From positions 1-64,000 of the forward strand of contig JAPKCC010000003.1 of assembly GCA_028823105.1 (NCBI GenBank): a stretch of DNA of 64,000 nt, read 5' to 3'. This DNA is from Phycisphaerales bacterium (GTDB lineage Bacteria > Planctomycetota > Phycisphaerae > Phycisphaerales > SM1A02). The position numbers were made by a program, and so were the translations under genes. Below the pieces are notes generated by a model. It had not been told where the DNA came from, ran no database searches, and saw only the letters and a list, made by a program, of their open reading frames with translations. Below are positions 53,910-57,503 of the stretch, piece by piece (position 1 is the first letter of the stretch; each line of letters opens with the position of its first letter).

Positions 53910-54105
53910 AGTCAAGTAGCCGAGTGGGAAAACCCAGCTTGGGGGGCATGGTAGCGGGGATTTCCACCACGGCAACCAGTGACCAAGATTCCGAAGGCCG
54001 ATCTGAATTTTCGGCAGGTCCTCCAGACCGACTTTCAGGACCTCGGAAACGGCAAAAACCCGTCAATCATTGGTCACGAGTCAACGAGAAGTCGATGCCC
54101 TCCAC

Positions 54106-54456
54106 ATGACGAACTTCGATCACCTGTTGGCTGATTCTCGAATCCACAAGGCCATGCTCGGCTTTGGCGTGGTCGCACTCGCCTTGGTGGCCGTCTGGAC
54201 GACCGCTCCGAGCACCACGCTGGCGGAGACCGGCGTTGACCGGACGGCAGGTCCCATCGGTCTCGGAACGCTGCACGGCCAGGCGCTCTCGATCCGAGTA
54301 GTTCCCGGCCCCTTCGGTCCCGGATACGAGGTCCTCGACAATACCGGCTCGCTGGTCGGCACCTTCGAGAACGAATACCAGCTGATTGCAGCCTTTAGCG
54401 TTCCGGCGCCGAGCCGACAGATTGCCGACGTCCCCACCATCGACGAGATGGACTAG
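54106..54456 (+). CDS. Hypothetical exported/membrane-anchored small protein
   Basis: MTNFDHLLADSRIHKAMLGFGVVALALVAVWTTAPSTTLA hydrophobic N-terminus. Confidence 0.5.
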   Translation: MTNFDHLLADSRIHKAMLGFGVVALALVAVWTTAPSTTLAETGVDRTAGPIGLGTLHGQALSIRVVPGPFGPGYEVLDNTGSLVGTFENEYQLIAAFSVPAPSRQIADVPTIDEMD

Positions 54457-54501: not shown

Positions 54502-55911
54502 ATGACGATGCCTGAACCGCGGGTCTCGACAACCAATCCGATTTTTCTGACCCCGCTGGCGTACGAGCGGAAGATTCTCGCATCGACGGGAATTTCTGCC
54601 GATCGGCTGCAAGTTTGCGGCCCCGGTCGCGAGGGCATCTGTCGATGGGCGGACGCCAATAGTGAGCATTCCGGCCCCATCATCCTCGTCGGGATCGCCG
54701 GTGGACTCGAGCCGGATCTGGCGTCGGGCAGCGTCATCGTCGTTGACGAAGTCGTCGATCAGCGAGGCCGGATCACCACGCCTCCCGCCGCCCACCGCAT
54801 CGATCTCCCCGGCAGCCGACGAGGCCGGGTCACCACCACGGGAAGAGTCGTCGCCAGCTCCGAGGCGAAAGAGGCGCTTGGACGATCGACCGGCGCCGCC
54901 ATCGTCGATCTCGAGTCGGTTCACTTCGCCGAACTCGCCGACAGCCGGGAATGGGACTGGGGAATCGTCCGCGTGGTCGGAGATCCGATGGACGAAGCAG
55001 TGCCGGCTTCACTTGATCGCTTCGTCGACCATCTGGGGCGGACGCGGATCCTCGTGATTGCGATCGAGTTGTTCCAACGCCCCGCGTTGTTCAAGAGACT
55101 CCGAGCCCTTGCGCGACAGACACGGGCCGGGCTCCTCGCCCTTGGCGAAGCCCTCCGCGAACTGCGATTGCCTCCTTCGGACAGTCCGAAAACGAGCGGC
55201 AGCCGGGTTCGAACCGGTCGAAAGCCTGGCGGACGGTCCATTCTGATCTTCGGTGGTTCCTTCGATCCCCCGCATCGCGGCCATCTCACCCTTCCGTTCG
55301 AGGCCGCGGCGAGACTCGGTTGCGACGAAGTTGTCTTCGTGCCGGCTCGGGTCAATCCCCTCAAGCTGGAGACACCACCCGCGGATCCTGCAGATCGAAT
55401 CAAGATGCTTGAGGCAGCGATCGAACATCGCGTTGCCGATCCGCGATCGTCTTCGATCACCGCGCGAATCGACCGACGCGAGATTGATCGGGAGGGACCG
55501 AGTTTCACCATCGACACCCTGGAGTCGATCCAACGCGATCTTCTTGAGGATGCTGGACGAGCGGAGGTCGCGGTGCCCCACCTCCCCCGGCTTCGCCTTC
55601 TCATTGGAAGCGATCAAGCCCTCGAATTCGATCGTTGGCGCGACTGGCAGAAGATCATCGCCCTTGCACCGCCGGTCGTGATGCCGAGACCCCCCGAGAC
55701 GCGAACCTCGCTTGCCGCCAAATATCGAGCGTACTTCGATTCGAACCTCGCAAGCCGCTGGTCAACTTGGACACTTGATCTGACCGCTGAAGGGGTGAGT
55801 TCCACCGAGATCAGAAAACGACTGGCGGATGGAGAGGACGTCTCCGAGTTGCTCCCGAAAGGCGTCCTCGAAGTGATCGCGGATCGCGGCATTTATCGAA
55901 AAAAACGCTAA
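54502..55911 (+). CDS. nadD: Nucleoside phosphorylase/nucleosidase-like domain fused to NadD
   Basis: N-terminal IILVGIAGGLEPDLASGSVIVVDEVVD...AAIVDLESVHFAELA...IVRVVGDPMDEAVP; C-terminal ILIFGGSFDPPHRGHLTLPFEAAARLGCDEVVFVPARVNPLK...GPSFTIDTLE...LLIGSDQALEFDRWRDWQKI...GVSSTEIRKRLADGEDVSELLPKGVLEVI. Confidence 0.88.
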   Translation: MTMPEPRVSTTNPIFLTPLAYERKILASTGISADRLQVCGPGREGICRWADANSEHSGPIILVGIAGGLEPDLASGSVIVVDEVVDQRGRITTPPAAHRIDLPGSRRGRVTTTGRVVASSEAKEALGRSTGAAIVDLESVHFAELADSREWDWGIVRVVGDPMDEAVPASLDRFVDHLGRTRILVIAIELFQRPALFKRLRALARQTRAGLLALGEALRELRLPPSDSPKTSGSRVRTGRKPGGRSILIFGGSFDPPHRGHLTLPFEAAARLGCDEVVFVPARVNPLKLETPPADPADRIKMLEAAIEHRVADPRSSSITARIDRREIDREGPSFTIDTLESIQRDLLEDAGRAEVAVPHLPRLRLLIGSDQALEFDRWRDWQKIIALAPPVVMPRPPETRTSLAAKYRAYFDSNLASRWSTWTLDLTAEGVSSTEIRKRLADGEDVSELLPKGVLEVIADRGIYRKKR

Positions 55912-55940: not shown

Positions 55941-57503
55941 GTGACTTCAAGCAAGACTCCATCCACCGTTGCGTTCGTCAGCCTCGGCTGTCCCAAGAAC
56001 CTCGTCGATAGCGAGCAAATGCTCGGCTCCCTACAGGCCGCCGGCATCTCGATCGTTCCCAGTGACGAACCGGCGGATGCCATCGTCGTGAATACCTGTG
56101 GTTTCCTCGACGCCAGCCGCGAGGAATCACTGGCAGTGCTCCGAGACGCCATCGACCGGAAGTCCAAGGGCGAAATTGGCCGCGTGGTGGTCGCGGGTTG
56201 TCTGGTCCAACGCCACCGAGCGAAACTGCTGGATTGGGCACCGGGCATCGACGCGATGATCGGCGTCTTTGATCGGGACCGGATCGTCGAAGCAGTCTCG
56301 AGCGAACCGCCGACTCGTGAGCATCTCGACGCGGAAGGACCTCGGTACTGGATCGCGGGGAACGCGCTCCAAGCGGCGACTGAGCGAGGCAGAGACGTCG
56401 TCGGCCTCACCGTCGCAGGGGATGACGGCCGAGGCATCGGATACTTCGAGGACGATTCGAATCGATTCAGACTGACCCCTCGGCACTGGGCATACCTCCG
56501 CGTGAGCGAAGGCTGCAACCAGAAATGCGCCTTCTGCACGATCCCCTCGATCCGCGGAAAAATGCGATCCAAGCCGCTGGACACGCTTCTGGATGAGGCC
56601 CGTCGACTTCTCGATGACGGCTGCGTGGAATTGAATCTCATCGGCCAGGACACCACCAGCTGGGGACGGGACATCGGCGACGGACGAGGACTTGCGGGAC
56701 TGCTCGCCTCGATCAACGACCTTTGCGAATCCCACGGCGGCGCGGGGCGGGCGAGGCTCATGTATGCCTATCCCACCAGCTTCACCGACGAGATGATCGA
56801 CGCGATCCGCGACCTCCCGAGAATCGAGAAGTACATCGACATGCCGCTCCAGCATGCCAGCGATTCGATGCTCACCGCCATGCGACGAAACGTGACGGCC
56901 GAACAACAACGGACCCTCGCGCTGAAACTCCGATCGCGGATTCCGGGAATGGCCCTCCGGACGACGTTCATCACGGGGTTCCCCGGTGAGACCGAAGCGG
57001 ATCACCAGCAACTTCTCGAGTTCATCCGCGAAATCGGATTCGATGCGATGGGCGTGTTTCGATATTCCGCGGAAGCGGGCACGCCGGCCGGCACCATGGA
57101 AAAGGATGCCTCCCTTGCCGTCCCGGATGACATCAAGCGACGACGAGAGTCGGAATTGATGCTCTGCCAGCAGGAGATCGCCTTCGAGAATGCGGCCTAC
57201 CTCGCCGAGCAACGAGTCGAAATGGACGTTCTGGTGGATGGCGAGGCCCCGGCCGCGTCCGAGATCGTCCTCCCTCAAGACGATCCGGCCGTCAAAGCCG
57301 AGATTCCCCTGCACCTCTCCGTCGGCCGCTGCTACTTCCAAGCCCCGCAGGTCGACTCCCAGACCTGTGTCGCAAGCGTCGGTCGTCTGAGTCCTGGTGA
57401 ACTCGTTCGTTGCACGATCGTCGCGAGTGACGGATACGACCTCGTCGCTCGACCGACCGATGAGTTGGTGCGAAAAACATCGCTCCCAGTCATCGGAGCG
57501 TGA
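55941..57503 (+). CDS. rimO: Ribosomal protein S12 methylthiotransferase RimO
   Basis: VAFVSLGCPKNLVDSEQMLG; VSEGCNQKCAFCTIPSIRGKMRS; ELNLIGQDTTSWG; KYIDMPLQHASDSMLTAMRR; TRAM-like C-terminus. Confidence 0.96.
   Translation: MTSSKTPSTVAFVSLGCPKNLVDSEQMLGSLQAAGISIVPSDEPADAIVVNTCGFLDASREESLAVLRDAIDRKSKGEIGRVVVAGCLVQRHRAKLLDWAPGIDAMIGVFDRDRIVEAVSSEPPTREHLDAEGPRYWIAGNALQAATERGRDVVGLTVAGDDGRGIGYFEDDSNRFRLTPRHWAYLRVSEGCNQKCAFCTIPSIRGKMRSKPLDTLLDEARRLLDDGCVELNLIGQDTTSWGRDIGDGRGLAGLLASINDLCESHGGAGRARLMYAYPTSFTDEMIDAIRDLPRIEKYIDMPLQHASDSMLTAMRRNVTAEQQRTLALKLRSRIPGMALRTTFITGFPGETEADHQQLLEFIREIGFDAMGVFRYSAEAGTPAGTMEKDASLAVPDDIKRRRESELMLCQQEIAFENAAYLAEQRVEMDVLVDGEAPAASEIVLPQDDPAVKAEIPLHLSVGRCYFQAPQVDSQTCVASVGRLSPGELVRCTIVASDGYDLVARPTDELVRKTSLPVIGA

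Follow-up and report, generated by a model that had tools for sequence, protein, structure and literature searches.

NadD, the nicotinate-nucleotide adenylyltransferase, converts NaMN and ATP to NaAD and PPi. HpnG (TIGR03468) is known from Methylobacterium, Burkholderia and Cupriavidus, where it is encoded by a stand-alone gene within hopanoid clusters; ribosylhopane has been named as its product, and the enzyme is called there a putative phosphorylase (PMC12583986). The window analysed here (a stretch of 64,000 nucleotides from a Phycisphaerales bacterium of an uncultured planctomycete lineage, whose genome is a 3.35 Mb draft, 97% complete) carries both activities, as predicted from their domains, in a single protein (Table 1). 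An earlier sequence-only reading had described one continuous frame of 469 codons with a nucleosidase-like domain followed by a complete NadD; translation, Pfam and NCBIfam bear this out, and the motifs quoted in that reading are present in the translation. PNP_UDP_1 is matched at 4.7e-14 (52.8 bits versus a cut-off of 25.1), CTP_transf_like at 2e-17 and the NadD model TIGR00482 at 128.7 bits (cut-off 112.45; aa 249-465). Both enzymes are of known kinds; what is new is the HpnG-NadD domain architecture together with a divergent HpnG clade. As far as could be checked the architecture is unreported: no publication treating hpnG together with nadD was found in the literature searched, where most subscription papers fall outside coverage, and pairing hopanoids with nadD returned only unrelated reviews mentioning nadD in passing.

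Table 1. Features of the fusion gene and its neighbours (positions in the window)
Feature	Position	Strand	Basis
128-aa ORF directly upstream of the fusion	54070..54456	+	relatives in 8/8 genomes of the genus
HpnG-NadD fusion ORF, 469 aa, ATG start	54502-55911	+	translation
N-terminal nucleosidase domain, HpnG-type, aa 1-226	54502..55179	+	PNP_UDP_1, TIGR03468, AlphaFold model, tree
Glu22, aligned with MTAN Glu12	54565..54567	+	33/34 HpnG-set rows, one gap
Glu138, aligned with MTAN Glu174	54913..54915	+	34/34 HpnG-set rows
Asp161, aligned with MTAN Asp197	54982..54984	+	Asp in 34/34 HpnG rows
Flexible linker, about aa 227-243	55180..55230	+	pLDDT <50 for aa 229-242, codon-like variation
NadD domain (nicotinate-nucleotide adenylyltransferase, predicted), aa 244-469 + stop	55231..55911	+	TIGR00482
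NadD nucleotide-binding motif GGSFDPPHRGH, aa 251-261	55252..55284	+	translation
NadD SSTEIR motif, aa 433-438	55798..55815	+	translation
rimO (ribosomal S12 methylthiotransferase), downstream neighbour	55941..57503	+	Pfam UPF0004, Radical_SAM, TRAM_2

The fusion is a single uninterrupted ORF, free of frameshifts and internal stops, in all eight genomes of the genus, and the proteins of the 7 congeneric relatives share 67-85% full-length identity with that of the window. An assembly artefact is excluded because the same single ORF occurs in all eight. The sequence-only reading had also considered that homologues might be split in two by a frameshift or an assembly join at this point; this does not apply to the fusion, since the split homologues belong to other genera and the fusion runs through the whole genus. 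Over the 27 codons of the linker, variation among five genomes falls in 14, 10 and 24 columns at codon positions 1, 2 and 3, respectively, i.e. with an excess at the third position. Where the NadD domain begins, no nearby ATG, GTG or TTG is common to the whole genus; an internal start yielding free NadD was therefore rejected, and NadD has to be made within the fusion. The domain provides the only TIGR00482 match in the host genome, for which reason it is predicted to be active, and S433, S434 and R438 of its SSTEIR motif are invariant in alignment A2. The small ORF upstream of the fusion has no Pfam match.

The sequence-only reading had proposed looking for this architecture in related genomes, and beyond the genus the single-ORF fusion was indeed found in at least five further genera from two families: g18 (L015), g29 (L016 and L096), g48 (L106-L109), g51 (L114 and L118) and, in another family, g46 (L017). 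A search with the full-length fused alignment, of which the best 80 loci were considered, added named-record fusions in Phycisphaerae (PKCT01000093.1, L138, 481 aa; VGXL01000010.1, L140, 490 aa); among these 80 loci none lay outside Planctomycetota except L143. At that locus, on a contig labelled Limnohabitans sp. MAG13 (JASGCF010000247.1), rimO comes after a partial HpnG-NadD fusion of planctomycete type; the contig is probably a planctomycete contaminant in the Limnohabitans MAG. Outside the class, the phylum search returned mostly frames of stand-alone length, plus three longer open frames (G540, G345 and G389).

In most of the remaining genomes of the order that bear HpnG, hpnG and nadD are separate genes lying next to each other in that order, often with a 4-bp overlap, and in such split pairs 8-124 nt separate the end of hpnG from the start of the NadD domain. 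The two genes are unlinked in some relatives. In four genomes of family f5 (G040, G048, G052 and G056) the HpnG-like gene and nadD are non-adjacent, ~7-19 kb apart on the same contig. The number of changes between the fused and split states is 7 by parsimony on the N-domain tree and 5 on the NadD tree; when only supported branches are counted, 3 or 4 are still required. Judged from these trees, the fusion changed state several times during evolution. As a rough control, a nadD-rimO fusion was never seen in the set, though rimO adjoins nadD in many of the same genomes.

Among nucleosidase models, the HpnG model TIGR03468 gave the N-domain its top score, 98.1 bits, which is below the curated cut-off of 187.1. 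None of 61 relatives reached this cut-off, and a planctomycete homologue adjacent to hpnH (L122) likewise remained under it with 113.8 bits. Because hpnH-adjacent planctomycete homologues also miss the cut-off, the model seems too narrow, and the low score seems to reflect this narrowness rather than to argue against HpnG; on its sequence, the N-domain is classed here as HpnG-type but divergent, falling outside what the curated model covers. TIGR03468 matches above 50 bits number at most one per relative, except for two in G036. In the sister families f9 and f11 the HpnG-like homologue adjoins hpnH divergently at eight loci (L122-L129), and at others as judged by coordinates. The host genome encodes HpnH on contig C140 (534 bits; cut-off 225) and, on C117, squalene-hopene cyclase (SHC; 562 bits; cut-off 431), the fusion being on C9 with no hopanoid cluster around it. 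When the N-domain was used as query, the nearest plasmid-borne homologues were those of Methylobacterium, Cupriavidus, Burkholderia (megaplasmids) and Azospirillum; the HpnG loci on plasmids of the first three adjoin SHC, and that of Methylobacterium also hpnH. All HpnG rows, the N-domain included, fell on one side of the tree, with MqnB and MTAN-like proteins on the other (support for the split, 65/85). Separate genes of the host genome encode a futalosine hydrolase (L001), which scores 162 bits with TIGR03664 (cut-off 124.7), as well as an MTAN-like protein (L002); AhcY is also present.

Co-occurrence with HpnH was scored over 277 genomes of the class, a protein being called HpnG-like at an A1 score of at least 77 bits, a line chosen after the scores had been seen; four f15 genomes were set aside as having other nucleosidases and one split match was accepted. 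Both proteins were found in 62 genomes and neither in 209, with HpnH alone in 2 and the HpnG-like protein alone in 4, i.e. 6 discordant genomes out of 277, and HpnH in 62 of the 66 that bear the domain. The association is strong when genomes are counted singly with kinship uncorrected (Fisher P about 1e-54); supported branches provide only 3 independent contrasts, all concordant (P = 0.25). Among 55 scorable relatives, 42 have both HpnH and HpnG, 11 neither, 2 HpnG only and 0 HpnH only. The two HpnH-only genomes also have no NadD match, so their assemblies may lack the linked locus. Exceptions that count against the HpnG reading are G023, G043, G145 and G162, in which the HpnG-like protein is present with no detected HpnH; since G043 has SHC, an assembly gap is possible there, but G023 is 95% complete. 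The locus of G023 (L048) is a split hpnG-nadD pair, with no HpnH match and a weak cyclase match (93 bits) in that genome.

For the N-domain, AlphaFold gives a model (mean pLDDT 90.7, pTM 0.88) with its best PDB matches among MTA/SAH nucleosidases (MTAN), and this fold, together with a PNP_UDP_1 match above cut-off, agrees with the superfamily that the sequence-only reading had named. The 34-row HpnG set was aligned with E. coli Mtn and DeoD from MG1655 (NC_000913). The catalytic Asp and Glu residues, which that reading had singled out for checking, are in place: MTAN Glu12, Glu174, Arg193 and Asp197 correspond to E22, E138, R157 and D161, each kept in at least 33 of the 34 rows. In MTAN, Glu12 activates water, Glu174 binds ribose and Asp197 is the catalytic acid; at the position of the last, MqnB rows have Asn (9/9). 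Arg24, Arg87 and Ser90, the phosphate ligands of the purine nucleoside phosphorylase DeoD, are not kept, Arg24 having no aligned residue in any row and Arg87 and Ser90 being replaced by L62 and I65 in the window. As the catalytic residues of MTAN are kept and the phosphate ligands of DeoD are missing, we infer hydrolysis, which suggests that HpnG, though named a phosphorylase, may be a hydrolase. The stretch that caps the 5'-substituent in MTAN has 31 residues here versus at least 44 in MTAN rows; the MTAN residues F105, Y107, P113, F151 and F207 are not conserved in the HpnG set, and the position of MTAN Ser196 is Gly or Ala in the genus, which counts against the HpnG reading. The N-domain is likely a hydrolase for a substrate with a bulky 5' substituent, and its shortened, non-conserved pocket loop would leave room for hopane. 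Hydrolysis would agree with the ribosylhopane product reported for HpnG (PMC12583986).

Taken with the co-occurrence with HpnH and SHC, the adjacency to hpnH, the subfamily tree and the assignment of other nucleosidase roles to other genes, the evidence points to conversion of adenosylhopane to ribosylhopane as the most likely reaction of the N-domain. We therefore regard it as very probable that the protein combines two enzymes, a planctomycete HpnG hydrolysing adenosylhopane and the only recognised NadD of the cell, that it was fixed from an operon, and that its domains work independently. In this scheme HpnH would link a 5'-deoxyadenosyl group to diploptene, giving adenosylhopane, from which the N-domain would strip adenine, most likely through an MTAN-like hydrolysis; the ribosylhopane so formed would be en route to C35 bacteriohopanepolyols, and the C-domain would supply NaAD by the usual NadD reaction. 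The source of the fusion would be a two-gene unit hpnG-nadD(-rimO) with abutting genes or a 4-bp overlap. The full-length model (pTM 0.54) has a disordered linker (pLDDT <50, aa 229-242) and no confident domain contact; two independent enzymes on one chain are favoured because no confident packing of the domains is seen, and the fusion would then set 1:1 co-expression with no passing of substrate. The simplest reason for HpnG to be carried on NadD would be that neighbours in an operon are co-expressed.

A nucleosidase of MTA, SAH or 5'-deoxyadenosine, serving to clear 5'-deoxyadenosine and SAH produced by RimO or, more generally, to recycle SAM, would also have the MTAN fold and catalytic residues seen here; rimO lies directly 3' of nadD in many genomes, and the by-products of this radical-SAM enzyme are MTAN-type substrates. 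We nevertheless consider this role unlikely. It was rejected as the main reading because genomes with nadD-rimO and no HpnH (G012 and G025) also lack the N-domain; moreover, the homologue often adjoins hpnH where it is not beside nadD, F105, Y107 and P113 of the MTAN 5'-pocket are not kept, MTAN models score far under cut-off (PRK05584, 25.8 versus 169 bits), AhcY is found in nearly all genomes and the host has its MTAN-like gene. Least probable is a part in NAD metabolism, i.e. a nucleosidase or phosphorylase acting on nicotinamide or nicotinate riboside or mononucleotide and coupled to NadD, as the fusion and the operon linkage might suggest: NadD occurs in 269 of the 277 class genomes and the N-domain in 66, and the domain co-occurs with HpnH, groups with HpnG in the tree and, in the sister families, has a homologue adjoining hpnH, not nadD. 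Of the options offered by the sequence-only reading, the one naming adenosylhopane thus stands on the HpnH co-occurrence, the hpnH adjacency and the tree, and those of nucleoside salvage or turnover of NAD intermediates are not supported, the domain being missing from many genomes with nadD and, in the class sample, often beside hpnH when away from it.

It is also conceivable, if improbable, that an HpnG of this kind has an added role in which the tether to NadD couples maturation of the hopanoid side chain to the supply of NAD(P), for instance if NadD were subject to feedback or if reductant were made close to where ribosylhopane is reduced. Such a role could account for at least 3-4 switches between the fused and split states on supported branches (parsimony gives 5-7) while nadD and rimO, often adjacent, never fused in the set, and the step from ribosylhopane to BHT is one with no established enzyme (PMC12583986). 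However, the product of NadD is NaAD, not NADPH, the genes are separate or unlinked in many relatives, and the full-length model, with its disordered linker and low pTM, predicts no confident contact between the domains.

Futalosine hydrolase was rejected as the identity of the N-domain: L001 is the MqnB of this genome, Asn takes the place of the catalytic Asp in MqnB rows, MqnA and MqnD do not track the presence of the domain, and TIGR03664 gives it 10.2 bits (cut-off 124.7). A separate observation concerns family f15, where a 473-aa ORF of G143 (L132:935-2356, minus strand) combines a nucleosidase domain at aa 4-205 with a UbiA prenyltransferase, which exceeds the TIGR01475 cut-off at 202.8 bits and scores 159-179 bits with MqnP models; G112 and G117 have open frames of about the same length. 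The ORF is thus a candidate menaquinone-synthesis protein in which MqnP is fused to a nucleosidase of futalosine type.

If the HpnG reading holds, an adenosylhopane-processing enzyme has been identified in a group whose HpnG escapes the curated model, which bears on the genome-based prediction of producers of C35 hopanoids, biomarker lipids; it would also be a lipid-pathway enzyme that was joined more than once to a central cofactor enzyme.

Compared with described systems, the N-domain resembles the HpnG of Methylobacterium, Burkholderia and Cupriavidus in fold, catalytic Glu/Glu/Asp, C-terminal extension, co-occurrence with HpnH and SHC and side of the tree; it differs from these stand-alone proteins in being fused to NadD, and plasmid-borne HpnG homologues are about 30% identical to it. 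MTA/SAH nucleosidases (E. coli Mtn, 1jys and relatives) share its overall fold and catalytic residues, but the N-domain has a short 5'-pocket loop, extra C-terminal helices and a hopanoid genomic context. MqnB belongs to the same superfamily, with one copy elsewhere in the host genome, but forms its own clade and has Asn in place of the catalytic Asp. The C-domain is like other NadD proteins in exceeding the TIGR00482 cut-off and in its GGSFDPPHxGH and SSTEIR motifs, to which the fusion adds an N-terminal nucleosidase domain and a linker; PRK07152, the other two-domain NadD model (361 positions), matches the fusion only in its NadD part.
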